Below, piece after piece: positions 9,901 through 62,500 of a stretch of 64,000 nt of DNA (position 1 is its first letter; every line of letters begins with the position of its first letter). Position numbers and translations under genes: made by a program. The notes beneath the pieces were generated by a model. It saw only the letters and a list, made by a program, of their open reading frames with translations, had not been told where the DNA came from and did no database searches. This stretch comes from Capitulum mitella (taxonomy: Eukaryota; Arthropoda; Thecostraca; Pollicipedomorpha; Pollicipedidae), in the NCBI GenBank assembly GCA_030062745.1, contig CP099843.1, positions 5,147,001 to 5,211,000 on the forward strand, read 5' to 3'.

Positions 9901-11134
9901 CCACACCTCAGATTGTTAACGCTGTTAGCCAGGACGTCTTCAAAACTTTTTACGTTTCAAAACATTCCGGCAGACGACAGCTGAACTCGTCACCGGCGGC
10001 CAATCAAATCCGTCGGCGGCTCGTCCCAGAGACGCGGGCCTCCGACGTCAGCCGGTCCGGACAGGTGACGTCACTCGGACGGCCGAGCCTCGGCACCGCT
10101 GCGTAGTTCAAGGTCCGGCGGTCCTGGGGAGAGCGGCAAGCTCGTCCAGGCGACTCGGGGGCGCCGATCTGTTGGATAAGCGGACACCGTCGGCGGACAA
10201 TGGGCGGGAGCTGGCCTTCGCGCTCCGGCGCCGCCGTGCGTGCCGCAGGAAGCGCTCACGCGGCGTCGTGCGCCGCGCTGGCCGCGGCAAGCAGCCTTCG
10301 CCGTAGAGGGCAGAAGCCTAGAAGACTGCCCAATGATCTTTGCCCGTTGTCCTAGAATTTGCGGGGCGGATGACCGTGACACGTGAAGGACACAGGAAGA
10401 AGGCAACATGTGCTGATCACGAACCTGTAGAAAATCCCGCCAAACACGTCATTATGAACTGTTACAATACCCCTAAGTGGTTGGTAAGCATGAAAAAATA
10501 CGCATTCCTTGGAGAGATCCAGAACTATCCAAAGCACTCCCCATGGTCACTGCACAACATTTTCCCTCGCTGTCTAGCGTCAGACGGGTATGTTTTGCCA
10601 GAGGCGCTGACAGCATCAAGGCATACCCGCGCTAGAAAGCGAACTGATGCATATATGCCTCTGCATCTGCCGATCCTTTCTGCTCAGCACTTTCACAGCG
10701 CGTCGTTTGCGAACGCTGCAGTTCAAAGGACGCCGCCATGTGCCGCTCCAGACCACCCCTCTCGCCAACAGCGGCCGCCACGCGCCGCTGGCGGCCACGT
10801 CCCGCCAACAATGGTTTCTCGGCACTTCTATGACGCATCCCGGCCGCCGGCGCAGCGGGCCGTTCGTCGGACAGCTTTCGTTCATCCTTGACCCAAACAG
10901 AGTGTGTACACTCGGCGGGCGTTGCTCAACTTCCGCCTGGCGGCAGGAGCTGACGCGGCGCACGCGCCGCCCGCTCTCGGAACTGACGTGGCGGGAACCG
11001 GGCGGACCGCGCCGTCAGCACGGTCCAAAGCGACGGCCAGTCGGCGCCGGCAGCCGACACGGCCGGCCCGTTAGGTCTCATCTCGAGCCGTCGCACCTGA
11101 CTCGGCGCGGCCAGCTGGAGGCGATCGGCAGCTG
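6901..11134. other. Intergenic DNA with two further CpG-rich patches
   Basis: No recognised gene. CpG-dense patches lie at about 8100-8690 and 9240-9500. A 201-codon minus-strand frame (8108-8713) and a 233-codon one (9098-9799) overlap frames on the other strand and are low-complexity Arg/Ala/Pro strings. The 183-codon frame at 10340-10891 has no recognisable domain. An exact CRE palindrome, TGACGTCA, is at 10066-10073. Confidence 0.45.
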
Positions 11135-11465
11135 TTGTATCTGGAGGACTTGGCAGCTGTCGTGTCTGGAGGGCTGGACAGCCACCGTGTCTGGAGGCGT
11201 GGACAGCTGGCGTGTCTGGAGGTCCGGGCAGCTGCCGTGTGTGGAGGTTTGGACAGCTGACGAGTCTGGGGGCTGGACAGGCACCGTGTGTGGAGGTTTG
11301 GACAGCTGGCGTGTCTGGAGGTCCGGGCAGATGCCGTGTCTGGAGGTTTGGACAGCTGCCATGTCTGGAGGTTTGGACAGCTGGCGTGTCTGGAGGCCCG
11401 GGCAGCTGCCGTGTCTGGAGGTTTGGACAGCCGCCTCGTCTTGAGGGGAAGACGGCTGCCATTGC
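11135..11465. repeat. 25-bp minisatellite, about 13 units
   Basis: Units of 24-25 bp close to CGTGTCTGGAGGTTTGGACA plus GCTGS repeat about 13 times. The TGGAGG core recurs at 11341, 11366, 11391 and 11416, exactly 25 bp apart. Because 25 is not a multiple of 3 and the unit lacks stops, long repetitive frames appear in several phases and on both strands (183, 137 and part of a 305-codon frame on the minus strand). These are by-products of the repeat, not genes. Confidence 0.92.
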
Positions 11466-11639
11466 TGGAGAAGACAAATGCCACGTCTAAAAAGACAGTC
11501 CTTTACTATGTGTGTCCGAGAGACTGAAAACGCTTGTCTGAAAAAGCAGAACGGAAAACTGAAGCACATGACCAGGGTACGAAAACAGTGTTGGCCCAAA
11601 ACCCAGGGCAGGCAGCACGCCCGTGCTAGGAGCCGGGAC

Positions 11640-28215: not shown

Positions 28216-30000
28216 GCTCGCAGTCGCAGCGTCACCAGCGCCCGGCCGCCGTCCGGCCGGAGCCGGGCTTTAATTCATTTGACCCCGCGCTGTACGGCGG
28301 CGGCCGTGTCCCTGTGCCGCCCGGCGCCCGGCGGCCGGCCGGAAGCGACGCTCCATGCATGTCGCCGCCGCACCGGCGCCCCAGTGGGAGGAGCCGCCGG
28401 GGCGCGGTCCCGGCTAATTAGCCTGTTACAGGCGGGCCGGCGGCGGCCGGGCGGAAAACGGCTCGAGGAACCGCGGCGCACGTCGGCGCGGCGTCGGAGC
28501 GGCCACGAGGGGCCGTCGTTTGACGTCATTTGGTCGCGGACGCGGGTCGCAGGTGTCCCTCAAGACTGCGGGGCGCCGTGGCAGCTGCGGCCATGCGTCA
28601 TGGTCGAGGCCGCAACCATGAATGTATGGACGTTTTCAAAGTGGAAGGGGCCAGAGCCATTTGTTGGCAATTTCTTCCCGTACAACACCATAGAGCTGTT
28701 GGAGCTATCCAAAGCCGGTAGAGGCTCCGCTAGGTTGGTAGGAGGACCGCTGCCCTTCCCACCTCACGGGCTGCTACACACACGGCCGCACCTGCTGCCC
28801 CACGAGCGCCAACCCTCTTCAACCCCGCAGCGTCAGACGTTCGTCAACCTTATGAGGGAGCCTTTGCCCCGGTTGCCGAGTGCGCGCCAACCGGGCCTGG
28901 CCGAGGCTGTTTGAGCGCAAACACGCGCCTGGCCTCGTATCGGCCCGTATTGACTGCGGCCGAGCCTGCCTGGCAGTTCTGAGCCTTGTTTGCCCACTCT
29001 GGGCCGTGTGTTCCCCGCAAGACGGCGGGTGGTTAGGCGTCAGGATGGCTGTCGGCCGATCCCCTGCTGACCTACGGATTCCTGCTGCCTTACTGACTCC
29101 TGATGTCCCACCAGCTCCTGTTGTCCGACCGAATCCTACCGTCCCGCTAGAACCTCCTGTTCCACCGACCCTTGCGGTTTTACCGACTGGTTTTCCACTG
29201 ATTCCAGTTGTCCCACTGACTGCTGTCCCGCTGACCCCTGTCATCCTGTTGACACTAATTCCCCCTCTGATGCCTGCTGTCCCACCGACTCTAGTCGTCC
29301 CATGGGATCCAGGCATCCCATCGATTCCTTGTTGTACCATCGACCCCCCCCCCGTTGCTCCCGATCGAAGAGTGTGGAACTGTACTGCGTATCTCTTCTT
29401 CACCTGTCCTTGGAACCGGCTCTGAGGACGGCAGCCGTTGACCAGGTCAGCCAGGTCATAAAGGCTCAGACCTTGGTTGGGCCGGGCCGGCTGGGGGCGG
29501 CGGACAGCCCAGTTCGCCTCCCTCTCTCCACCCTGGTTTCCCCAGGGACCGCCCGCCGGGCAGGGCCGGGCAGGTCGTAAAGGTGTTGGCCTTCCCCGGG
29601 GAGCGGGCGCCGGGGCCGACCTCCCCCCTGCCGTCCCCCCCCGCAGCTGGTCGGACCCCAAAGGTCCCGACCCCGCCGCGGGGGGCGCCGGCCGGGCCAG
29701 GTGTCGCCGCATCGCGCGGGCTCGGCCATTATGTGGCCAGACAATGGCCGGCCGAGGGTCGCCGCGACAGGTGGGCGTCGCCCCGCCGAACCCCGGCCCG
29801 AGACGCCGCCACGCCGCCGCGGGCGCGCGCGTGATGGCGATAAATGGCCGCGGAGCCGGCCGCCGGCCGTTTCGCCACCATCAGTCCTCGCCGCCGCCCG
29901 CTCGTCCATCATGAGGCTGGACTGGAGCCGGCCCCTTCGGCGCGGGGCTCTGTTGTCCCGGCGGTCGCCGCCGCCGCCGACGCGCTAAACAAACCGGTGG
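28216..30000. other. CpG-rich region flanking an 18-bp repeat
   Basis: Very CpG-dense blocks lie at 28270-28560 and 29560-29990, on either side of the 18-bp repeat listed separately. A minus-strand frame stays open for 297 codons (28819-29712) and a plus-strand one for 181 codons (28880-29425). Both pass through the repeat. An exact CRE palindrome is at 28521-28528. A real but unrecognised gene is possible here. Confidence 0.4.
29082..29346. repeat. 18-bp minisatellite with only triplet length changes
   Basis: About 14-15 units close to CCTGTTGTCCCACCGACT. Most are exactly 18 bp and two are 15 bp, so every length change keeps the frame. In the plus-strand frame they encode a hexapeptide such as PVVPLT or PAVPPT. 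In the open minus-strand frame they encode Gly/Thr/Ser-rich hexamers such as GTTGVS. Whether either frame is translated cannot be decided here: there is no signal peptide or flanking domain. Confidence 0.75.
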
Positions 30001-32908: not shown

Positions 32909-33120
32909 GCTAAAGAGCCGTGATGACGTAATACAGCGCAGCAGGCATGGTAAAGAGTGGCGATGATGTCACATTACTGCAGGGGTAGAGCAAGGGGCGA
33001 TGATAGCGTTCAACCGCTCTGGGAGCACGCTAAATGATCGGGACGATCTCACACTGCTCAGAGGCGGGCTAACGATGGATGATGACGTCACGCCACGTCA
33101 AGGTGCGGCACTGACATCAC
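32909..33120. repeat. Strongly diverged tandem repeat (GATGATGTCACACTGC type)
   Basis: About five irregular units of roughly 37-45 bp share a GCTAAA...GATGAYGTCACA...GCRGRGGC pattern. One contains the exact CRE palindrome TGACGTCA (33083-33090). Confidence 0.55.
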
Positions 33121-33252
33121 ACTATGGTGGACTTCTGCCGGGAGGACGGTCCCAGGTCCGGCTCGGCCGCGTCCCCCTGTCGGAGTCGGGGATTAAATGT
33201 AGATGATGTAAATGTTCCTGTCTGTCCGTTCTTCCACGCCCCTGCGTTCTGA

Positions 33253-33460
33253 TGGAGCCGGGGCCGGGGCAGAATCTGCAGCAGTTCTTCCTGTCGGTTC
33301 GTCCCGGCCTGGCCCTTTGTTTTCCTGACGGAGCCGGGGCCGAGACCGGGGCAGAATCTGCAGCAGTTCTTCCTGTTGGTCCGTCCCCGGCCCAGCCCTG
33401 CGTTCTCCCGACGGCTGCGGCCGGGGCAGAATCTGCAGCAGTTCTTCCTGTCGGTCGGTT
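33253..33460. repeat. Three copies of a 75-82-bp repeat
   Basis: GCAGAATCTGCAGCAGTTCT followed by TCCTGT starts at 33269, 33351 and 33426. Each copy is preceded by a GGGCCGGGG-type stretch and followed by a YGGTYSGTYCC-type stretch. The core begins with the short palindrome GCAGA-A-TCTGC. Confidence 0.88.
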
Positions 33461-33470
33461 CCCAGTCTGG

Positions 33471-34599
33471 GCTTGTGGTGGGACGAGCGCCGGAGCTGTC
33501 CGTTTCGTGCGGCTGGGCCGCGGAAGGCGGGCTGATGTCTCGTGAATGCGGTTTCCGGCGTGCGGCGCATCCTCTGCGTGGGTGACGCCGCGTGTTTTTA
33601 ACGTCCCAGTCAGGCGACCTAGTCGGAAAGCGACCAGGGTTTGTCGGGAGCTGTCACCGCTGACGGTCGTTCCGGGAAGTCGTGGCGAGAGCGGGTTTAT
33701 TTGCGGAGTTTGGCCGTGTTCCGCCCGGCCGGAAGGAGGGGCGACGCATCAGTATGCCGATCGTTTCCGGTGCGGGGCGGAGACGGCTCCTTCGTCCAAC
33801 ATATGACGAACACCGCCGTCCGCTACCGCTGTGTGTCGGAAAATGGTATAATCACCGTCTCGTCCCGTCACACCCACCGGTCGCCGTGGAATTGCGGAGA
33901 GCCTCGTAGATCTTGCGTCAGGCTTAATGACTTCAAAAAACCGTAATTAGAGTGCTTTGAACCGTTCTCTTTGTTTCACATGCATATTTCGCAGTAGTCA
34001 GTGTCTTGAGCTACCTGGTGTGTGCGGAACTGATTGAAGAATGGCGTAATGGTTTGGGAATATTTGTTGACATCTGTTTCCAGAAATTGTCGTGGCGTAA
34101 CCAGATGCTCGGTGATATGTGGGATTCGATTCAATGACTCGTTGTAAAGGTGAATCCCAGCTAATGACTGCTTTGTGCTTGTTCATGACCTTTCTGGTAT
34201 CAGTATCCCACAGGGTCCAGATATTTAATATTAAAGCGATGTTGTAGACGTCTGTCAAAAATATGTCATAGTTCTTCCCAGAAACCTCCATATTGCGACG
34301 TTGAGTTGATAAGTTCTTTCCCGTGCCTTCAAAGATCTATGGGCTGCCTCCCATGGTCTCTATTATTTATCCGCCACCTCCTCTCTCCCCGCTCCAAACC
34401 CTTTTATCATGCCAATCATGCCAGATGAAGAGCATTCGCCGAGCTGTCGGCTGACATAGAGAACCGCTCACAGCTCAGATGCTGTCGTTTCACTAAGGAA
34501 CAACGCCCCTTTCGGTGAAATCCGCAGCCGGAATCTGCTTATTCCCGCGTCTAGAGAGTGCGGCGGTTCTCTCCTCCCCGCCCCTCGGCCGCTCACGAC
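33471..34599. other. Intergenic DNA, nothing recognised
   Basis: GC-rich to about 33,920, then AT-rich to about 34,480. No conserved exon or repeat identified. Confidence 0.5.
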
Positions 34600-35102: not shown

Positions 35103-35399
35103 ATGAAGACCAGCAAGAGCAAGAGCGTGACGAACCTGGCGTCGGTGCAGGCGCAGTACGCGTCCACGCCGCACCTGTTCGTCTTCCAGTCCAACGACGA
35201 CGCGGCGGTGCTCAAGAAGCCCGAGCCCATCTACCAGTCGGCGGTGGACGTGCGCGCCAGCCGGCAGGCGGCGGCGCAGCGCATCAGCGAGAAGTACGAC
35301 TCGTACCGCAACCTGGCGCGCGAGGAGGAGCAGACGTTGACCGTCAGCGACGCCGACATCGCCCAGGTCGAGTCGTTCTTCGCCGGCCATAAGACCCAG
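35103..35399 (+). CDS. WH1-CRIB protein, exon 1 (residues 1-99)
   Basis: First coding exon of a 272-residue protein. It starts with ATG in a GC-rich context and is codon-biased strongly towards G/C in third positions. It ends at a CAG|GTGAGT donor in phase 0, and joins 46093 in frame. The encoded part begins with a short basic Lys/Ser segment (residues 2-8). It then has an HLFVFQSND stretch (about 23-31), a helix-forming Ala/Arg/Glu region (about 50-78) and an acidic tail before the exon end. I recognise no catalytic motif. The join is supported by codon phase and by the fact that exon 2 begins exactly at the first strand of the WH1-like domain. I recall similar uncharacterised arthropod proteins with the same order, but cannot attach a gene name. 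Confidence 0.82.
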
Positions 35400-36789
35400 G
35401 TGAGTGGCGGCGTTGGGCGGTCGGGCGGCGGGTCCAGGCGAGGAGGGAGGGGGCTGTGGGTGATTGGAGGCGCGTGATGCGGGGTGTGATCAGGGCGTGG
35501 TTGGTGAACTGGCTGCCAGCACGTCGAGGCCTCTAGAGATGCCAGAGATCTTCATTGCTATCGGGATCGCTTCCTGAGAGTCCGAAGGTGAAGTCGCAGC
35601 ATTTTCTCGAGATTTTGCAGATTAAGATAATGCTTCGACTTCCAAGGGAAAAGATGCAACCACTTGTGTATCTCTCTGTGGTATTAGTGTTCTGCATGCC
35701 CGTTTGACGTTTTGAATTTCTGTGGGCAGCATTGTTCCACTTTAATATATCAGCCAGAACAGTAAGCGGTTGTTGAAAACGCTGTTTTTTTTTGTTGAAA
35801 ATGACCCAGGTTTCATTTTGCCTAGTGTGGAATATTGTAGAAGGGGACCCCTTCACAGCAAATCTCGACTTTCCCTTGACAGGCTGGAACTCGATACAGC
35901 CTTAACGAGGTCACGTATTCTCACAACACAGACCAACAATGCGTTGTGATGAAGCGATAGGTTCAATTCCAGAAATGATCGATGATGCGTTCTCACGAAC
36001 TATTGCTGGAAGGAAACCTCCCGGCGCGTGCGGCGCTTGAGGAATCAGCTGGTCATCCGATGATGGTGATATTCCCACACTCTGTCTTCCCTGAAACATC
36101 CATGCCCTTTTTGCTTCCCGACCAAACCGGAACCCATGAGATGATTGGCTACGGTCCCACGGCTGTGGGTGAATTGAAAAGCCGACGCCAGAGCGTGCAG
36201 CCAGCGGCGTGGAGCGGCCGCTGTCTTCGGCAGGCTACCGCGCTGTCACACGAGCGCAGAACGCAGGCCATACGACAGTGTCTCGATCGCATGCCGTCTT
36301 GCACGACAAGCCACTTACCATGGGAACTCCGTTCGCTTTCCCTATTGAAAGCTCGGTTTGAGGAAGACACAATGCAGGAATTGCGGCCGTAAATAGGGCC
36401 GGAGAAACTCTCGCGTCGTTCGGGACCGTTGTTCGTGACGCCTTGCCGGCCGCTAATGCGTCATTGATGGTCGGAGACCGGTCAGTTACAGGTCGCCTCC
36501 TCAAACCGTCTTCTGGTGGGACCCGCCACTTTTCTTTCGTGACGTGACGCTCATATCCCTTGCGAGGCGATTTCGTTTTGTTTCACGCACCGGGTGGTCG
36601 TTGTCTTACGCTCACAGCTCGTCATCGCGAGACAGACAACCTGACGCCTAGATGTTTCTGTCAGAACCGGACAGATAGCTGAATGAAGCGCTAGTATGCA
36701 CACACATGCGTATTTGCATGTCCAAGGGGTGCAGGTATAAGGCATTCGCTGGTGTAACCCGTAGACATCAGTTTTGGTATGACTGCGAT

Positions 36790-36851
36790 GGACGTTTATG
36801 GACATATATGGACGATGGAGGTATATGGACGTATATGGACGTATCTGAACG
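36790..36851. repeat. 10-bp repeat (GACGTATATG type)
   Basis: About six imperfect units of about 10 bp carrying GGACRTATATGG-like sequence, roughly one per DNA helical turn. Confidence 0.75.
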
Positions 36852-39234
36852 TAGTTTTTGGCTACCTGAAAAAATTAACAAAGCCTGCATAGCCCGTACC
36901 TAACGAGGATATGAGAGATCAACAACTTTTGCCAGGTCTTTTCCCGTTAATAAACTAGAGGTACACTTGTCACAGTTATTCTCATCCATCGAGAGGATCA
37001 ACTGAGTTTGTTGGCAATTCCAGGCATGTGCCGTGGCTATGTAAGTCAGTTAACCTAAATCATTCCCATCTGATAACACCATATATTCAGCGTGTCGCAA
37101 AAAGAGGGTTACCCAGAAATCTCATCGTAATAAACCGCACTTCAAAACTGACTGATTCCAGCCATTACCCACGTCGAGGCTGCGATTCAGACACCATTAT
37201 TGCCGACCTTTTAGAACGCAGAGCAAAACGCTTCGAGGATGGATAAGATTTTTATTAAACCTTCGCGACGATGATCGTTAATAATAATTACCACGGCTTG
37301 ACAGCTCTGTGTGAAGTCGACGATGCGTGGCCGATCGGCCATTGATTCCGTTTTATCTCTGATTCTTCATCCGTGACGTCCTTAAAGGCGAGACGGCATT
37401 TATTCCCTATTCTTCCCACACCAAGAATATCTTCATTATAAAGGTATGTGTGAGTCCTATAAGGATTTACGCATGCCTTACTGGAAATGTTTCTTAATGC
37501 CAACAATATTTACATGTAGTACGCGTGATACAAATATCTGATGATAAGTTAATGGTCCGTTGGGTGTTGGTGATGACGGATATCAATCGAACGGAATTAA
37601 ATCCGACCCATTCCCTCTCTCGTGGCTGTCCGTCTCCGGACGTTCTGCTGGTCGTTTTCTCCGCGAGGCGTCGTATATCGGCTGCCGTTTCCCCGGGCGC
37701 GGAGGAGCCCGCGCTCAACTTTCTTTCACCCGGCGCGCAGTGCGCCCGAAACGGTCCGTAATTTGTTCCCCATTCTCGGCCTGTTCGTGGGCCGTCGTGA
37801 TTAATGCCCGTTCATCGGGTCTGGCTGGCCCGAAATCGACCAATTTGGTCCGGTCCCGGAGCCCGCGTTTCACGCAGCGGCGGAAATACGTCTCACGTGT
37901 TACATTCTCGGTTTCAATTCGGCGGGCTCCTTTCTATTTCATGCGGGCATTGTGAATGGCGGTGATTGGGAGCCAATGAAGTCGCCTTCCTGGTCGGTGA
38001 TTTCTTGGAGGAATGTGAATCTAATGGCGGTGCGAATGTGAGGTCCGTTCGATGCTGGAGTTTTTCCAAGATCTCTGTTTGGCGGCTACGAACTTGGTGC
38101 CGCGGGCTTGTAAGACCGTCGAATAACTCGTAGGAATGAACCTTGAGATATTTGTAAAATCATGGCTGTATGACAATGTTCATTCAGGTAGAATTGCTTT
38201 GATGTATTTTTGTGGGCACCTCTGCTGAGCTCTCCAGAACATATGTAACCAAATCCCATAATCCACCATGGCACCAATGACATTCGCAGCCTGTCCTTCC
38301 ACCATGCTCCCTATGGGTCATGTAGCTCGCCGTTTGTTGTGGGAAATCTCGCCAGGCTCGTCTGGCTCTGCCTGACATTTACTGTTCATGGTTCGAGTCA
38401 CAGCCCAGGTTGGAAGCACTGTCGGATGACTCCCACGATGTCAGCCACTTGGGCGAAGGGGTCATGGACTGCGTAGTGCTGTAGCTTTTGCAGACTTAAT
38501 GCTTTATGAAGACCAGATCGGGGTAGGCACTTGAGAATGTTGAATATTTCTTCCAGAAACTCCTATACGCAATGGTAAAGCTCACCATCTCTAATGAATA
38601 TCATGTCTGTGTCTTGGATAAGCGGCTTCCAGTTACCACAAAGGCGTAAACCCTTTGACATGAAATACGGCGACCAGGTTGCTGGCGTTAAAGCCGGTTT
38701 CATCCTCTAAAACGACTGAAATTTATTGTACAATAGAAACTGACACCACACGCTTTGGATGCCATCCAAAACGCGCCCCTGTCCGCCTTATCGCTCGGCG
38801 TTTTTGTGCCCGTAACGAACTGGTACGAGCTACATTACTGCATTCCACTGGACTGCACTTAAGAGCTGGTTCGCGGGGCCGATGTGGCCTGATATCGGAT
38901 TTGTTCTTGATCCACAGTGATCCGGGGTATAAGCGGGATTTCCCTCCGTTTGCACGTCTTGAGCGCATGTTTATAGAAAGCTCCCCACTCTGATACGGAG
39001 GGGAAGGGGCGGAGATTAAATAACAAACAACACCAACGAACTTCGCAACGAGTGGAAGCAGTCAAAGCGTTGCAAGGTTCGAGTATACAAGGGGTGCTGC
39101 GTAGCGCCGGAAAGAACGGTTCTCTACGGCGCAAGGGAGGAGTGGCAGGAACTGGGCGAGATCCCATGCAAGGTATCGGAGATGTTTCGGACCGGAAGAG
39201 GACCCGTGGCGAGCGCCGACATGACGTGCGACTG

Positions 39235-39490
39235 TGACAGACCGGTCGCAGGCCACGGCGACACACCTCCGTGACAGACCATCGCGTCAGACCACCGTGA
39301 CAAACCTTCTTGACAGACCACTGTGACAGATCTGGGACTGACCACGGTGACAGACCATACTGATACATCCGTGACAGACCATCAGGTCAGACCTCTGTGA
39401 CGAACCTTCGTGATAGACTACTTTGACATACCACGTTGTCACCGTAACAGACCACATTCACAGACCCGTGACAGACCGCCGCGACAGACC
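39235..39490. repeat. TGACAGACC minisatellite
   Basis: Around 13-16 imperfect units of 11-16 bp built on CCGTGACAGACCA, including variants such as TGACAAACC and TGATAGACT. Located in the large intron. Confidence 0.85.
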
Positions 39491-41302
39491 AGTGGCCGCC
39501 GAAAGTCTGGAGCGACGGGACGGTCGAGTCTGGAGGGTCGGTTCCCCCGAGTGCGCCAGACCGCCGGCGGCAGCTGCGCCTCTGACGAGATCGCCGGCCT
39601 CTCGTGGGAACAGGCCGGTGCAGGTGTGCCGGCAGGTGCTCGATGTCGCGCTGCGCGTGGGATTAACTCGCTTGTCACAGGACACCGCCGCTGTTCACGG
39701 TACGCGACCCGCCAAGGTTAAGCACACATGCGTGCATGCCCTGGGGATTACCTTTTTTGCCGGAGACATGCTTCGTCATGGATATTCGGGGAATGGAATC
39801 CATCTTGTACGCAACTAATTGCTTGGGTCGCTTTTTCGTCGTCTCAAACGCGTCGTCGGCGATGACAGTCCTCATTTCGTCTTACAGCCTACGGTGTTCG
39901 AGAATATATATCGTTACCAGTTTCTTGTCACCTTTCTGAACAGAAAAACGTGTATTCGATAAAGAAAGACTTTCTCACGGAACGCGGCCGAAAATTGGCA
40001 GCATAGCTAAGTAGTTTTGCACGTCGTAGTCATTTTTACGTCGTTGCTAGGACCGCGGTCTTTGTCTTTGGTTTTACCGGGTGAGTTTGGTCCAGCCAGC
40101 ACTCTGTTTCCTAATGTTTCCACGCCACGTATGCCAAAACAGGCCACCGTTGATAAAAATAAGCTGGTGCATGCTGTACGCCGCTCCTGATTCTACTACT
40201 TGCCGTTGCATACCTGAAAATGCTAGGTGTCATTGTTCAGCATCATTGTTTGGTTTACTGTACTGCGTAGGTATACTATAAAAAGGGCATTTTCGTGTAC
40301 CGGCAGCCGTATCCCTTGCTAGGATGGCAAAAAGAAAGCATAAGGTAATGGTGTGATGTGCACATAAAAGGACTGATTCTCGTCTTTCTGGTACATAATT
40401 GCGTCGTTCAAAGTGTCACCCATTGTTTTCGTTCAGTGACATTTGGAAGACGATGTTTGCACAGCAGCTACACAATTTTTTTGTCAGCCGATAAAACTTT
40501 GCCCATATCTGTGGCTTACGGTAACTGCACGACGTTGATCCGCAGGTATATGCGAGGACTTTGTCTCTGTAATTGTTATAGTCGTTGAGTTATGGCCTAA
40601 AAGAACCTTTTTCAAATAGCAACAAAAGTATGTTGTCCGCCGGTAAGCAAGACGTTCCGTCATGAGCACAATGTCAGCTGATGATTAAACGATGTTTTTG
40701 CGACTAGTTATTTGGATCAATACTCCAAATCAATATTTGGATCAACTGGTTTCGCCCAGTTCAGCGAGTGAAAAGAAGTTGATGTTTTCGGGGAACATAC
40801 GTCTGCAAAATTAGATATCAACACGCAGACAACCGATGCAGGGTTTGAGCGAGCCGCAAATATTTCATGGGCCGAAACAATTGGTTTTTCGTGATCTATC
40901 ACGAGACCACGTAGCGAACCTTCATTAATGGTGCAGAGGAAACTTCGTTTATTTAATTCAACGACATTAATTAAGATGCGTGGAAAACAGATGCTCAGAT
41001 AGCGAATTCTGGCCCGTCACGGCAATGGGCGTGAGAGGCTGCGTCGTACTCGACCATAGCAGTCGGACACATAAAAAAAAATCAACAGTAGCAAAACAGC
41101 GAGCCAACAGAGTCTAGACTGTCCGAGTTGCAGGAGACGAATGTCATACGGGAAGGTTCGGGTTTCATACGCTTCCGCCGCCGCCGTTATCTGATTTGAC
41201 GGTTGAGCGAAGTCCAGTCGGACGTGCGAACATTAACTGCGATAAAACAGCGGGAGTTAGCTAACCTTCTTAATCAGAGGGTGACGTTTCGTGCAAATGA
41301 TT

Positions 41303-41323
41303 GGGGATGGGGAGGGGGAGGGG
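41303..41323 (+). other. Potential G-quadruplex motif in the intron
   Basis: Four runs of 4, 4, 5 and 4 guanines with loops of 2, 1 and 1 bases. This is a strong match to the intramolecular G-quadruplex pattern, on the transcribed gene's sense strand, so it could also form in the pre-mRNA. Confidence 0.6.
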
Positions 41324-42327
41324 TGGCGAGCCAAGGCCCTGACCTGCCCCGAATGTGGGCTCTCAACGGATTTAGCCCACTTTATTTTGGTGAACGGCAA
41401 TTTCTCAGTTTTTTGCTATCAGTTAACAAATAAATGTTGCATATATTCTCTTGTATATGTATATACATATGCATATGTTTGTCTATTGTGTACAAATATA
41501 CATCAAGGTAGGTGGGTAGATGGGGATAGTTATAAATGTACATAATATGTACATATTTGTACCATTACTCTGTTGCATGAGTTTCATGATTCATGATTCT
41601 GTTTTTTATTGCAGCTGCCCTTTTTTACATACAGCTGTGAATCAAGATTTGTTTTCTACCAAAAAATATTTGGAAGTCCTGAAGGAACATTGGTGAGATT
41701 TAAATGAATATAAGTAAGCCTCTAGCAGTACCAGACCTATAGAAAACGACAGCCTTGAACACTGTGTCTGTTTGACCTCATCTGTCACTATATCTTTGTT
41801 AATGTTTTAGATTATTTATACTTTATTCTATGCTTTCTGCCTATCTCTTATCTATTTCGGCCGTTCTTTTCGTTACTGTTGCCCATTTCCCTTGTAAAAA
41901 CCGGCAGAAAATATGAGGGGCGAAGGGGGAGAGAAATCAGCTTTGGGGGCCAAGATTCACATTGGGTAGGCCATGGCCCCTCCAAAAACACAAGTCGACA
42001 CCCCTGTTTTAAATGACAAACTACGTGGGCTATTCATGACAGAAAATTTATTGGAGAAGGAAACAGGTCTTCGTATGCTGTAGTAACTTCTAGTAGTAAT
42101 AAGTAACTAGTAACATGGTTGCAGTGAGCGCGACGAGACTCTTTTTATACAAAATCTTTACTCACCTGAATAGAATGGCGTCCAAATACGCCTTATCCCA
42201 TGCGTGATATAAAGAAATATAGCTGTCAGGAGCTCGAATTTTCCCACCACTGCAACACGGAGAACAAGAACTGCTACAGTGTACGCCGACGGTGGAGACC
42301 TCCTGACGACGGAGACGACCGTGACGA

Positions 42328-42373
42328 CGGAGACCTCCTGAATGTCCAAACAAGTACATTCAGGAGGTCTCCG
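42328..42373. repeat. Perfect hairpin, 18-bp arms and 10-nt loop
   Basis: The arm CGGAGACCTCCTGAATGT at 42328-42345 is exactly complementary to 42356-42373, around the loop CCAAACAAGT. A partial extra copy of the arm (GGAGACCTCCTGACGACG) lies just upstream at about 42,294. In the intron's transcript this would fold into a stable stem, though it is shorter than a typical pre-miRNA. Confidence 0.9.
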
Positions 42374-44014
42374 CGCGCATCCGGGCCCACAGGACACTAG
42401 TGGCGCCACTGCCATCATGAGCCATTTCCTGGACATGCAGTCCGCTCACATCCTTTGCTCAGATAGCCTAGAGAGGGGACGCCGTTCGACGTTATCAAAG
42501 GCTCAGCGGGAACATTCTGTGGTCAGAGTCTCAGCAGAACAGTCGCACACGCTGCACCCGAGGTTTGACTGCCTGATCTCACGTCATGATAGCGCGCCCT
42601 TGTCGCAAAGGGAGGACGTCGTCTGTGACGGCTGCATGGTTCGTCAGGTGCACCAGCGCATGAAATCTCGCAACAGCACGATTTATTGTTTGGCGCTACG
42701 CCCGCCGGCTGTTTCGCTGTTCCCGGTGCAGCGCCGACGAGAGGTGTCGAGAAACAAGGCAGTCACAGCCGCCGACGGCGCCGTGAAATAATCAACAACA
42801 TGGCGCTGTCTGATGTTAGGTTACTGGCGTATGTCGGCCAGGCTATAAACAAGTCTGTGGTTGGGAGCCGCCGGCGGCCAGTGCTGGTAAAGTGCCAGCC
42901 AGTCGGAGCTTCATTCATAGCGGTAGGACCACTTTCACTCAGGTCTCACACATCAGATCAAAATGTAAAACAGCCGGCTGACCCAGATCGCAGCATCTCG
43001 GCGGCGCCTGGGTCCCGCGGACCAGCCCTGTTGTATTGTGCAGTGCCTTTTCACTTTTTTGTCTGCGATCGGTCACTCTAGACAGAAAATGTAAAATAAA
43101 TGGAATGACCTTGGAGCCGAAATCAGAAGGTCTTTGGGGTAGATGTGTTTATTTTCTTTGTCGTGTTGCCGGCCACTTTCCGGATTGTTTAAGAGAAAGA
43201 TCTAAATTCGCCATATATTACAGCGGAATGCTTTCTCCGAGACACCCGGAACAATATGCATTTAATATGCTAGTCTGTATTCATTGTAAGTATCGTAAAT
43301 GATTGTTAGCTTTTGTCTTATGCTCCCAGTTTGAATCGTCATGCCCCTTTGCTGTTAATAGCCGCTATGAGCTGTTAAAAGCGGGTCACCTTGAAGACAA
43401 CACTGATGTGAGAACACCCGATTCCCATATTATCTGGGGCCACAGCCCTTCGCCTGTTGCGCAAAGCTTTAGGACTTCTTCATCATTGTACTACTCCATG
43501 ATTTTATCATTTTCTGCGTCCACGAGCTGGTATAAGCAACTAATGCAAATTTGCTTTCGGACCGTCTGACCGCGGATGATTCTAAGAACACGAGTAAAGA
43601 CCAAAGGTACACAAATAAAGACCGTGAAACCAGTGAGATTATGGTGGACAGCGTTTACGACAGACATCAGGCCTGCTTTTGTGCTAATGCGTGGAAAGCC
43701 AGAATCACGATTATCTTTTCTCAAGGCCTGCAAAATGTTAAAATGATGTTGACTTAAAGACTGCCGTCTGTCAGACTTGTTGCGGCACATCAACGGTGGC
43801 GTCTAACTGTTCACGGTCACATGTAACAAGAAAACTTTTTCTTTCTGGAGCCTTCATGTTGTATTTCCAACCCAGCCGAACGCTAACAGCGACCGAAAAT
43901 CTGCTGTTTCCTTCAGCACACGGCCTTGCAAAACCGCGTTGACAAAGAGATCGCGCGGGTATGTTTCCGGTCTAGTTAGTCGGCTGCCGGCTGTCGTGTC
44001 TGCCGTTCCGTATG

Positions 44015-44520
44015 TCACGGCGACGTCGTGACGGCGGTCCCGTCACCAGGTTCACTGTGGCACTGGCGGTATCCCGTGACGGGGTTCATGGCACATGACA
44101 CTGTTCCCGCGACGAGATTCACGGCGACGCGGCAGGGTTCCCACGACGAGGCAGCACCGTGACCGTGTTTCCGTGTCGAGGCTCACGATGTGGCGTTGCT
44201 CTCGCCGTGAGGCTCACGGAGATAATGCGAGGTATCCGTGACGATGTTCAAGGTGGTAGCCTGATAGTCTCCTCTGAAATCGTTCGTAGAGATCCGACCT
44301 GGTAACCGATGTGTGACGGTGTTCCTCTGACGCGGTTCACGGTGAGTTATTGATGCCGTCGCCGTTACGTGAATGGCGCCATTGCTGTGACACCAGCTCT
44401 GCCCCATTGTTTACCGGGTTTGCACCACGTGGCTCACGGGTTGCATTACCACATGGGCCGCGATGGCTTCGTGACGGTCTGCGTGACGAGTTTCACAGTG
44501 ATGCGGTGGGATGGCTCTTG
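44015..44520. repeat. Degenerate GTGACG / TTCACGG array
   Basis: Irregular repetition of phrases such as CCCGTGACGAGGTTCACGG, TTCACGGCGACGCGG and GTGACGGTGTTCC, at roughly 30-40-bp intervals with many substitutions. An ancient minisatellite is the best reading. Confidence 0.6.
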
Positions 44521-44986
44521 CCCCAGCGATGCCGACAACGAGCAGCCCGACGCCAACTGGACCTTGTCCGTCGACTTGTCCGCGCTAATTGGAAGGGCAT
44601 GGTAGCGCGGCTCTGAAAAAGTCAGGAACCTTGAGCGATGACACTCCGAGGGGGCCCCACCAGGCGGATGGGCCCGATAACAGCTAACTTTGCACTGTTC
44701 TTTTCGGCTCTGCAGAATCATTTCCTGGTCAGGATGATTCAGAAGCGCCGTGTTTACGGAAGTCACTGCAGGAATAATGGGACTGCTTGCTTCTTCCGTT
44801 CTGCATTTGGAGAAAAATGAATGGGTTGATGTCACCTGAGCGGATGGAATTTTAGCAAGGAACTCGGAGGTCTTGGTCTGCGGGAGCGGTCGTGGTATCT
44901 TCTCTCAAAAAGATCCTATTCAGAGAAATATTACAGGTAACTGCGTTGCCGTAGAGCTCTCATTGAACTCTGATTTCGCGATGTCT

Positions 44987-45045
44987 GTGCATGACTAGCG
45001 ATCCCGGGGGTCTAGCGACTAGTGTGCATGACTAGCGACCCCGGG
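44987..45045. repeat. 22-bp direct duplication, 37 bp apart
   Basis: GTGCATGACTAGCGA followed by YCCCGGG occurs at 44987 and 45024, differing by one base across 22. Both copies end in the CCCGGG hexamer. Confidence 0.85.
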
Positions 45046-45834
45046 AGACGGGGGTCCGGATCCCTCCCATGTTCAGGCATTCTTACATTAGGCCTTTGGC
45101 AATGACTGAAAAGAAGCGGTCTAAAGTCATATGTGGACCCCCACCCAATAATTTCCGGAAATTTCCAACCATGTGTTTGTGAAGGAACCAATTGCAGGAT
45201 TGCCCAAACAACTTTCCAGACGTGACACCTGGTGATTCTGCGTCATGACTGCAGAGGAAGCTCTGCACTGCCACCTCCGAATCTGCCGTCACCCGTTTTA
45301 TTTTGTGCAGACAGGCGCGGTCTGGTAGAAAAACTAGGCCCTGACTGACTGCATGTCGGGAGTGGAGCTGAGCTTTGTCCGGTTAAATCAGGCCGAGGTT
45401 TGATCAAATGCCTTTACGCTGAGAATCAATCTGAGTCGTAACCACCCAGGCCAGACAGAGGAATACCACTCTCAGGCGCGAGGTCTGGTCGACAGGGCAG
45501 TCTGTGGACGATCGCGGGCAGGATCTGAGCTCTGCTTTTCAGGCAGGCCCAACAGAGATCAGATCGGATCCCTGTTTCCCAGGCAGACGTGACAGGCTTG
45601 TTATCCAGCATCTGTTCCCAAGGCAGGCAGGGAAGAGACCGGGTCGAATCCCTGCTTCCCAGGCGGGCCGTCACGTGCGCGTGGCAGCGTGACGCTGGTC
45701 CGGCGAGTCCGTGCATTCGGGTCCAGTCCGACATTCATCCGCCGTCGATCTGTTGTCTCGGCGCCGGGCTCAGCTCGTTACCCCGGCACCGTTCCCTGTC
45801 GCTGATCACTCTCCGTGTCACGGCCCGTCTGACC

Positions 45835-45909
45835 CGACCGGTCAGGGCAGCGCCCCGGGCGACCGGTGAGGGCATTGCCCTGGGCGACCGGTGAGGGCAG
45901 TGCTCCCGG
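45835..45909. repeat. Three adjacent 25-bp units before exon 2
   Basis: Head-to-tail units start at 45835, 45860 and 45885, each close to CGACCGGTGAGGGCAGTGCC plus five bases. The array ends 183 bp before the 3' splice site of exon 2. Confidence 0.88.
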
Positions 45910-46092
45910 CGATCGTGTCTACCCGTGTATGCTAATCGTGCTCCGTGTGAGCCGCGTTTCGACATCGGGCGATGCGGTCGCTTCCGCTGGGAGCATTCCT
46001 GCGGTCTTGCCATGAAACTGTTCGAACGGGACACGTTTTCGAAACAGTCGTCCCCTGACGCGTTCCTGACGTGCTGCCTGTTCTGCCCGCAG

Positions 46093-46614
46093 GTGATCGT
46101 GTGCCGGGCGCTGGCCAACATGTACCTGAGCTCCGAGTCGAACTCGTGGGAGCTCAAGTACACGGGCATCCCGGCACTGGTGGTGGACGCCGGCGACACG
46201 CGCAACCGCGGCCGTCGCCTCATCCAGATCGTCCTCGCTGAGAAGGGCACCAGCTTCATGCTGTGGCGCGACGTGGTCGACAACCTCTCCAACTACACGG
46301 CGCCCGACCCGAGCTTCCACACGATGCACCTATCGACCGACCACCGGCACCGCGTCGGCTTCAGCTTCGACGACGTCGAGGCGGCCAAGGCGTTCCAGAG
46401 CCAGCTGGAGACGCTGTGCGCCGACCCGGCCAACATCAGCCTCTCTGGGCCGGCGCTCAAGAAGCGGCGCAAGAAGAAGGTGGAGCGCTACGTGCGGCCG
46501 CGCAAGGAGGACATCTCGCAGCCGTGCTGCTTCCAGCACGTGACCAGCGTGTGCGTCTCGGACATGGACCGGTTCTACACGCTGCAGAGCCTGGTGGGCA
46601 GCAAGCTGGCGTGA
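46093..46614 (+). CDS. WH1-CRIB protein, exon 2 (residues 100-272 and stop)
   Basis: Last exon, after a CTGTTCTGCCCGCAG acceptor; it is in frame with exon 1 and ends at TGA (46612-46614). Residues about 100-208 match the WH1/EVH1 pattern of WASP: CRALANMYL at the first strand, W118, the IQIVL strand (143-147), LW (156-157), FHT (174-176), GFSF (188-191) and a C-terminal helix (194-208). WH1 domains bind proline-rich partners such as WIP. A basic run (KKRRKKK, 222-228) follows, then ISQPCCFQHV (240-249). That fits the CRIB consensus I-S-x-P-x(2-4)-F-x-H, which binds Cdc42/Rac-GTP. The protein ends about 23 residues later, without a polyproline region or VCA segment, so it should not activate Arp2/3 like WASP. 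A scaffold or GTPase-sensing adaptor near the cortex is my inference. Confidence 0.85.
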   Translation: MIVCRALANMYLSSESNSWELKYTGIPALVVDAGDTRNRGRRLIQIVLAEKGTSFMLWRDVVDNLSNYTAPDPSFHTMHLSTDHRHRVGFSFDDVEAAKAFQSQLETLCADPANISLSGPALKKRRKKKVERYVRPRKEDISQPCCFQHVTSVCVSDMDRFYTLQSLVGSKLA

Positions 46615-55166: not shown

Positions 55167-59067
<3,901 letters not shown>

Positions 59068-60162
59068 GACTGCGTGCTAGATGTCAGCTCGACCAGCTCC
59101 GATGAGTCTGATGACGAGACGCCACTAAAACTGCTCAACAAAGAGGAGCTGGAGAAAATCAGGAACCAGCGTAAAAAGAAGAAGAAAAAGAAAGAAAAGA
59201 GGAAAAAGCACAAAAAGAAGAGGTCTGACTCTTCAGATTCGGACTCCGGTGACGACGACAGGAAGAAGACGAAGAAAAAGAAACGCGGCAACGGTGCACA
59301 TTCATCTGACTCGGGCAGCGACGCGGGGAAGCATAAAAGGAAAAAGACCAAAGAGAAGGAGAAGCACGGTCCGGACTCAGACTCCGACATCGCAGCGGCT
59401 CGGCGCCGGCACAGGGGGCAGCACGGAGGCCGCTCCGCCTCGCCGGTAGATGGCAGGAGCTCCGACCGCGGCCGCTCTGAGCGTGGCGGCGGCGGCGGCC
59501 GCTCGCGTGACGTCTCCGGCGGGGACCGCCGGGGTGCCCCCGATCTCAGGAGGCGCTCGAGGTCGGGCAGTCGGGGTGGCGGCCGGAAGAGGCGCTCCCG
59601 CTCTCCCGCCGACACCAAGCGAGGCGCCGCGAGGCGGTCGACATCCGGGAGCCGAGGCACCGCGAGGAGATCGAGGTCCGGAAGTAGGGACGCACGCGGT
59701 CGGAGAAGACGCTCCGGCTCCGACAGCGCCAGGAGACGAGGCGACAGGAGACGCTCCAGGTCGGGGAGTCGAGGCCGGGGTGGAAGGAAGGGACATTTGG
59801 GGTCCGGTGATCGGGGCAGACGAGCCGATAGACGGTCCCGATCCCGGAGTCGCGACGGAGAGACGAGAAAAAGACACTCGGGGTACGGTAATCGCGATGG
59901 AGTGTCTAGGAGACGCTCTGGATCTGGGAGTCTGGAGGAGACCAGAAGGAAACGCCCTGGATATGGAAGTCCGGAGAAGACTAGGAGGAGGCGTTCAAGA
60001 TCGGGGAGCGGGGGAGGGCGAGGTGTAAAGTGGCGGTCGAGATCAAGGTCCCAGAATCGTGGCAGAGAAGAGAGCAAGAGAAGCTCAAAGTCTCGGAATG
60101 GTAACAGGGGCAGCCGGAAAAGAAGTTCGAGTAGTTCGACCTCCTCAAGTTCAAGCTCTTGA
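59068..60162 (+). CDS. SREK1IP1: SREK1IP1-like protein, RS-rich exon (residues 43-406 and stop)
   Basis: After the CTTCGCAG acceptor the frame continues DCVLDVSSTSSDESDDE, the second hallmark of SREK1IP1, and runs to TGA at 60160-60162. Order: acidic/serine block (about 45-60), helical KLLNKEELEKI (about 62-72), lysine-rich runs (about 76-130), then about 270 residues rich in RS, SRSGSRG and RRRSGSGS motifs, ending in a serine string. The human protein is about 155 residues and mainly Lys/Glu-rich after the knuckle, so this one is more than twice as long, mostly through an expanded RS tail. RS tails are phosphorylated by SRPK/CLK kinases and mediate contacts among splicing factors, so a nuclear-speckle role is likely by family. 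Confidence 0.88.
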   Translation, partial: DCVLDVSSTSSDESDDETPLKLLNKEELEKIRNQRKKKKKKKEKRKKHKKKRSDSSDSDSGDDDRKKTKKKKRGNGAHSSDSGSDAGKHKRKKTKEKEKHGPDSDSDIAAARRRHRGQHGGRSASPVDGRSSDRGRSERGGGGGRSRDVSGGDRRGAPDLRRRSRSGSRGGGRKRRSRSPADTKRGAARRSTSGSRGTARRSRSGSRDARGRRRRSGSDSARRRGDRRRSRSGSRGRGGRKGHLGSGDRGRRADRRSRSRSRDGETRKRHSGYGNRDGVSRRRSGSGSLEETRRKRPGYGSPEKTRRRRSRSGSGGGRGVKWRSRSRSQNRGREESKRSSKSRNGNRGSRKRSSSSSTSSSSSS

Positions 60163-62117: not shown

Positions 62118-62369
62118 TCACTCGATCATCTTGAAGAGCGCGATGGAGAAGATCATGCCGAGCAGCATGACGCAGGCGATGCCGACGCCGACGCCGCCGA
62201 TGACGGTGGCGTGCGCCGTGACGAATTCCTTGATGCGGCTTTTGCAGCCGACCTTGTAGGCGGCGGCCTCCGTGCAGGCCTCGGCGTCCGACGCGGGACA
62301 GCAGGAGGATGGCAGCGGCGTCACCCGGCCCTTCCAGTCCTCCGGCCGGTCCACGCCGCAGCACTTCAT
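62118..62369 (-). CDS. Tetraspanin, last exon (partial gene)
   Basis: On the minus strand a CTGCGTCCCCAG acceptor precedes 83 codons and a stop. The peptide has the second half of a tetraspanin large extracellular loop: CCG (3-5), W12, PSSCC (20-24), C32 and GC (41-42), i.e. six cysteines forming disulfides. The fourth membrane segment follows (about 54-80, Val/Gly/Ile/Leu-rich) and a very short cytoplasmic tail, KMIE. Tetraspanins are four-pass membrane organisers that assemble integrins and other receptors into microdomains. The exons for membrane segments 1-3 are not visible up to 64,000, so the gene extends beyond the window. The exon may begin with codon ATG by chance; it is not the translation start. 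Cys pattern and tail do not let me name the subfamily. Confidence 0.88.
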   Translation of the reverse strand: MKCCGVDRPEDWKGRVTPLPSSCCPASDAEACTEAAAYKVGCKSRIKEFVTAHATVIGGVGVGIACVMLLGMIFSIALFKMIE

Positions 62370-62500
62370 CTGGGGACGCAGGGGCGAGTTAGTCGGCGGA
62401 CCGCGTCATGTTCTGTCATCAGGCCGCAGTGTTTCATCTGGTGACACAGGGACGTCTGCTATCACCCCCCAGCACTTCATGTGGGGACATATGGACGGGT
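62356..62500 (-). repeat. Copies of the tetraspanin 3' splice-site region in the intron (proximal)
   Basis: The plus-strand phrase CAGCACTTCATCTGGGGACG marks the true exon border. Two diverged copies follow in the intron: GCAGTGTTTCATCTGGTGAC (ATG-equivalent at 62435-62437, with CACCAG before it on the minus strand) and CAGCACTTCATGTGGGGACA (62478-62480, with CCCCAC). The second intronic copy has lost the AG; the first keeps it. Confidence 0.7.

Follow-up and report, generated by a model that had tools for sequence, protein, structure and literature searches.

Short relatives of WASP have been described outside the arthropods. In some basidiomycete species, the S-WASP is described as having neither a proline-rich region nor a VCA tail and as ending shortly behind the WAID; in some fish species, the S-WASP is described as missing the basic, C, and A domains and keeping a very short proline-rich region (both in the relevant passages of Kollmar 2012, PMC3298513). 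Here we describe a short WASP-related gene on the forward strand of a 64,000-nucleotide stretch of the Capitulum mitella genome (GCA_030062745.1, contig CP099843.1, positions 5,147,001 to 5,211,000), referred to below as the window. Its two exons encode a complete protein in which a WASP-type WH1 domain, a basic run, and a CRIB-like motif follow one another as in WASP, with no recognizable nucleating tail behind them. Our preferred reading, to which we give about even odds (a probability of roughly 0.5), is that the gene is an ancient WASP duplicate reduced to its input modules and that its product acts as an adaptor or competitor.

The short gene is real and intact. Exon 1 and exon 2 (Table 1) join in phase 0 and in frame into a product of 272 residues, and the open reading frames, splice sites, and phase-0 join bear out the exon coordinates, frame, and length proposed in a sequence-only reading of the window. 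The protein stops 20 residues past V252, the last residue of the CRIB-like motif, rather than the approximately 23 counted in that reading. G+C at third codon positions reaches 99% in exon 1 and 97% in exon 2, and none of the six flanking stretches measured had third-position G+C periodicity like that of the exons. We scanned 84 kb on both strands for codon periodicity (frames of at least 90 bases, score >18), a procedure that detects only strongly G+C-periodic exons. Between 34.8 and 62 kb, these two exons were the only forward-strand coding segments, exon 1 scoring 68.5 bits with a start that coincides with the ATG; on the minus strand, the same interval gave antisense shadows of both exons, and beyond it lies a tetraspanin gene. 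The last exon of the tetraspanin gene lies at window positions 62121–62372 (minus strand; PF00335, E = 1.1e-16), and the gene runs on past the window.

The genome assembly (477 Mb, 16 contigs, with the window on contig C5) carries a second copy of the short gene on contig C4. Its exon 1 (29453668–29453973) and exon 2 (29457129–29457638) also encode 272 residues, and its intron, about 3.2 kb long, sits at the same position as in the window copy. The two proteins are identical at 204 of 269 aligned residues (76%), and both stop at the same aligned codon, without WAID or VCA. When window positions 34001–64000 and the 10 kb that follow were compared at the DNA level with a 60-kb stretch of C4, ten matches came up, two of which are the exons of the short gene. 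The exon 1 match takes in 16 bases 5′ of the start codon and reaches about 50 bases into the intron; the exon 2 match runs from 10 bases before the acceptor through the stop codon, with 82% identity over 46083–46614 and no match beyond, so that the likeness ends at the shared stop codon. Three further matches are exons of the convergent tetraspanin gene, which is located after both copies, and a fourth, short match is collinear and lies just past them; four short matches at 41.3–41.9 kb resemble dispersed repeats. Because the exons are shared and the convergent tetraspanin gene follows both copies, the comparison indicates that a two-gene block was duplicated long ago. An old genome duplication has been published for thoracican barnacles, together with a count of 16 chromosomes (PMC11331182). 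As a further hint of duplicated blocks in this genome, there are two Ena-type WH1 loci, one on C7 and one on C9.

Comparison of the two copies also shows that the protein is under purifying selection. The 132 nucleotide changes between them produce 65 residue changes, whereas 2000 random placements of the same changes yielded 96.3 on average and never fewer than 84; the observed number thus lies below every random placement, as expected for a selected protein. Nei–Gojobori (NG86) estimates of nonsynonymous (dN) and synonymous (dS) divergence were 0.150 and 0.308, the latter probably compressed by the extreme third-position G+C bias. Conservation is uneven along the protein: 63/83 residues are identical in the N-terminal extension, 97/124 in WH1, and 12/23 in the linker plus basic run, against 32/35 in the CRIB-like motif plus tail (residues 234–268), the best conserved among the four segments compared.

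Relatedness to WASP was assessed with a profile built from N-WASP, WASP, and the genome's own WASP. The short protein matched it in two collinear pieces, residues 94–206 (17.0 bits) and residues 222–254, covering the basic run and CRIB-like motif (9.9 bits); the total of 28.8 bits compares with 9.3 bits for the best shuffle (1682 reported of 2000 shuffles). This collinear match supports the order of WH1, basic, and CRIB-like parts that the sequence-only reading had likened to WASP. When a two-copy profile was run against 177635 PDB sequences, the four matches at E ≤ 1 were all WASP or N-WASP (best 3.4e-5). The WH1-like residue pattern previously pointed out in exon 2 is confirmed: W118, L156-W157, F174-H175-T176, and G188-F-S-F191 are all present, and all are identical in the C4 copy except F189. 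In N-WASP, Y46, W54, and F104 form the EVH1 aromatic groove triad; the residues aligned with them are Y110, W118, and F174, identical in both copies, and W54 is tabulated as a WIP-contact residue (PMC3362030). These observations argue for a WASP-type N-terminal WH1 domain and, behind it, a basic region placed ahead of the CRIB-like motif as in the WASP family.

Other affiliations were tried and set aside. A single-sequence profile of the genome's Ena WH1 gave 1.7 bits, a score reached by 114 of 1457 reported shuffles, and one of its Homer WH1 gave 4.5 bits, reached by 22 of 1617; the Homer score falls within the top 2% of shuffles, yet far under the WASP signal. In NCBIfam, one of the two members matched a bacterial protease family at 12 bits against a cut-off of 200, which we regard as chance, and a search of viral contigs for relatives confirmed none.

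The WH1-region match starts inside exon 1, at residue 94 in the hidden Markov model (HMM) alignment and at about residue 84 in the MAFFT alignment. Since exon 1 closes with residues that align to the beginning of the WASP WH1 region, only some 83 N-terminal residues are without a counterpart; the earlier figure of 99 holds for these and was too wide by about 15. Within residues 1–83, the blocks QYASTPHLFVFQ and AVLKKPEPIYQSA are identical in both copies, and the extension gave no match at E ≤ 10 in Pfam or PDB. It is possibly a new binding module.

The CRIB-like motif, residues 237–252, is identical in the C4 copy and retains I, S, P, F, and the first H of the consensus ISxPxxFxH. Scored alone, the motif plus tail reached 16.6 bits against 7.6 for the best shuffle (3302 reported of 5000), and that of the C4 copy 16.8 against 11.6 (3644 reported of 5000). 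When the protein was shuffled 20000 times, the pattern IS-x-P-x(2-4)-F-x-H turned up in 3 of the results. Aligned with the genome's own WASP, the basic run and motif share 14/34 identical residues (BLASTP E = 7e-4 in a single comparison). The histidine aligned with N-WASP H208 is retained, and the H208D change in N-WASP reportedly blocks Cdc42.

The canonical WASP of this genome is a separate gene (C11:7351371–7354691) with a WAID, two WH2, and an acidic tail. Its WH1-to-WAID part forms one uninterrupted frame and its proline-rich, WH2, and acidic part another, with a small intron or an assembly indel between them. In human WAS, intron 1 is a phase-0 intron that follows codon 44, as seen from the splice variants c.132+1 and c.133-1 (PMC9304939; for residues L46 and A47, PMC4266975). 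The intron of the short gene lies at the same position in the HMM alignment and one codon apart in the MAFFT alignment; the canonical WASP of the genome has no intron there. Because the intron thus sits near WAS intron 1 and is missing from the genome's own canonical gene, the short gene is unlikely to be a recent copy or retro-copy of that gene. More likely, we infer, it split off before the canonical gene lost its intron.

Searches for a nucleating tail bear out the earlier claim that it is missing: downstream of either copy, we found no proline-run, WAID, or VCA exon. With the WAID of the genome's own WASP as query, the best tblastn match in the window reached only E = 3.9, and nothing appeared at E ≤ 1 in the 27.4 kb (C5) and 19.4 kb (C4) downstream of the copies. 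VCA matches downstream of both were weak (best E = 0.019) and no better than off-target control matches (E = 0.018), compared with 2e-44 and 1e-73 for the true WAID and VCA at the canonical WASP locus. Before the tetraspanin exon, neither locus contains a run of at least five prolines in forward frames of at least 40 residues. The genome has at least 24 WH2 matches; of the 24 listed, two fall in the canonical WASP on C11, and none is close to a copy of the short gene. By its predicted parts, the short protein, which lacks WAID, proline-rich region, and VCA (WH2, C, and A), is not a nucleation-promoting factor.

Could the two exons instead open an ordinary WASP-type gene with further exons that escaped detection? 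A donor-like GTGAGG starts at 46611, overlapping the stop; the coding scan, limited as it is to strongly G+C-periodic exons, skipped an RS-rich frame at 59038–60162; and about 220 bases after the C4 stop there is a weak match to VCA (E = 0.019; 33% across 51 residues). The C4 copy, however, has no such donor-like site (CACGTGACT) and stops at the same codon of the alignment, and DNA likeness between the copies breaks off at the stop. Together with the WAID, VCA, proline-run, and WH2 searches above, these points make missed exons very improbable. Decay of a WASP duplicate into a pseudogene is less probable still: it would fit the strong divergence from canonical WASP, with which pairwise BLASTP of exon 2 aligns only the basic-plus-CRIB piece, but not two intact copies of the same two-exon structure and length with third positions at 97–99% G+C. 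We reject it on the residue-change test between the copies.

Under the adaptor-or-competitor reading, each module retained from WASP would keep an input role. With Y, W, and F conserved at the aligned positions, the WH1 groove may in principle hold a proline-rich ligand of the WIP/verprolin type; the basic run would bind acidic phosphoinositides; and the CRIB-like motif may bind a Rho-family GTPase weakly or not at all. Since WAID, proline-rich region, and VCA are absent, the protein should not itself activate Arp2/3 and should have no intramolecular lock. It would then tie WIP to membranes, perhaps also to a Rho-family GTPase, and so limit or place canonical WASP. A piece of a WIP-like gene is present in the genome and consists of a WH2 followed by NDRSAPIL, which we take to be a WIP hallmark.

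Several results weigh against this reading or parts of it. The Pfam WH1 model matched residues 95–205 with E = 0.0026, but its 18.1 bits fall below the curated cut-off of 22.4, and PF00786 (PBD) gave no match at E ≤ 10, a negative limited by the HMMER filters, which remove most matches above E of about 0.1; the profile check proposed in the sequence-only reading was thus only half borne out. The C4 copy behaved similarly, with WH1 below the cut-off and no PBD match. The last 59 residues matched no CRIB protein in PDB: the 12 matches at E ≤ 10 were all HSP90, the best at 0.8. The earlier fit of ISQPCCFQHV to the CRIB consensus stands for the five retained positions listed above and fails beyond them, the second His being replaced by S251 and the Gly by C253 (S in the C4 copy); because of these two replacements, binding of Cdc42 or Rac by the motif is doubtful. 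An AlphaFold model of exon 2 alone had a predicted local distance difference test score (pLDDT) of 34 and a predicted template modeling score (pTM) of 0.31, too low to inform on its structure. The best PDB match of the WIP-like piece was a WH2 chain from N-WASP (E = 2e-11), followed by WIP with E = 5e-7, and its identity therefore rests partly on our assumption about NDRSAPIL. Published mutants are equivocal in turn. The cancer-type N-WASP mutant V418fs, which is without VCA, is reported to act as a dominant negative toward the nuclear F-actin of U2OS cells, as the competitor idea would have it; the same account reports no change from V418fs in N-WASP-deficient keratinocytes and raised nuclear F-actin, via WIP, with the WH1-only truncation R128* (PMC11720165). 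Because these results point both ways, the effect of the short protein on actin could go either way.

Alternatives to adaptor-or-competitor function differ in what the C-terminal half and the WH1 domain would do. The CRIB-like stretch may no longer bind GTPases, leaving a protein that uses its WH1 to dock WIP or another proline-rich ligand and its basic patch to meet the membrane, with motif and tail serving another protein contact. The replaced second His and Gly in both copies and the PBD and PDB searches, which returned no CRIB match, favor such a protein, as does the tail DMDRFYTLQSLVG, identical in both copies although no WAID was found; the retained histidine aligned with H208 and the conservation of motif plus tail (32/35, against 12/23 in the linker and basic run) speak against it, and we hold the idea as a tentative possibility. 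An actin-promoting role is unlikely. Here the protein would bind and stabilize or activate WIP, which would recruit cortactin or Arp2/3 with no VCA of its own needed; the WIP-dependent effect of R128* and the presence of a WIP-like gene piece are consistent with this, but in the same source the longer V418fs, from which just the VCA end is missing, either inhibited or had no effect (PMC11720165), and the present protein retains basic and CRIB-like parts after WH1. Within the adaptor-or-competitor reading itself, a more ambitious version is possible, though we lean against it: a dedicated, conserved animal WASP antagonist derived from WASP, built of WH1, basic run, and CRIB behind a novel N-terminal module and free of autoinhibition, gating WIP at Cdc42/phosphatidylinositol 4,5-bisphosphate (PIP2) membranes. 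Its intron place would be old enough to be common with vertebrate WAS, and its two copies would have been kept after a block or genome duplication.

Table 1. Features of the short WASP-related gene, in window coordinates (position 1 is the first base of the 64,000-nucleotide stretch)
Feature	Position	Strand	Evidence
Exon 1: ATG, N-terminal extension, WH1 beginning (residues ~84–99)	35103..35399	+	Open reading frame, donor CAG/GTGAGT, coding scan
N-terminal extension, residues 1 to ~83	35103–35351	+	63/83 residues identical in C4 copy
Intron, phase 0, at WH1 beginning	35400..46092	+	GTGAGT...CCGCAG
Exon 2: most of WH1, basic run, CRIB-like motif, short tail	46093..46611	+	Acceptor TTCTGCCCGCAG/
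Predicted WH1 domain, residues 100–206 (match starts at residue 94, exon 1)	46093..46413	+	Pfam, WASP profile, PDB search
Basic run, residues 222–237 (KKRRKKKVERYVRPRK)	46459..46506	+	Sequence; aligned with N-WASP basic region
CRIB-like motif, residues 237–252 (KEDISQPCCFQHVTSV)	46504..46551	+	BLASTP against own WASP, shuffles, C4 identity
C-terminal tail, residues 253–272	46552..46611	+	DMDRFYTLQSLVG (256–268) same in both copies
Stop codon TGA	46612..46614	+	Likeness between the two copies stops here

Elsewhere in the window, the RS-rich frame at 59038–60162 (plus strand) is open for 374 residues, K/E-rich at first and then with RS and RG repeats, like an SR-type nuclear protein; it had no Pfam match at E ≤ 0.01. 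The open frames at 33117–33748, 10926–11486, and 28819–29880 (minus strand) consist of short, degenerate repeat units such as TNRKNCCRFCPG and, judged by eye, are probably minisatellites and not genes. Upstream of the window on C5, a minus-strand coding segment resembles part of a protein kinase catalytic domain (CDVWSMGVILYTLVTGSSPY), by eye only.

WASP and N-WASP are among the closest known systems. The short protein has WH1, basic, and CRIB-like parts in the same order, a phase-0 intron no more than one codon away from intron 1 of human WAS, and Y, W, and F at the aromatic-groove positions. It differs in having no WAID, proline-rich region, or WH2/C/A, in its replaced second CRIB His and Gly, in its N-terminal extension of about 83 residues, and in a shorter linker leading from WH1 to the basic region. 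With Ena/VASP and Homer, it has the EVH1 superfamily in common, the subtype profiles reaching only 1.7 and 4.5 bits. Among the titles and abstract openings listed by our searches of the open-licence literature, none concerned an animal WASP-like protein ending at CRIB. A natural, selected gene resembling a VCA-less N-WASP would mean that evolution has built a competitor or adaptor into an animal actin pathway, and the protein lets the WASP front half be studied without autoinhibition or nucleation. The described S-WASPs offer partial parallels. Like the basidiomycete form, the short protein is an extra WASP homologue without proline-rich region and VCA, but the fungal form is described as keeping a WAID near its end, and no WAID was found here. 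Like the fish form, it is a short WASP-derived paralogue without the CA domains, but it keeps the basic region that the fish form is described as missing and has no proline-rich region. As far as these descriptions go, the short protein fits neither S-WASP, and its predicted truncation is of a different kind.

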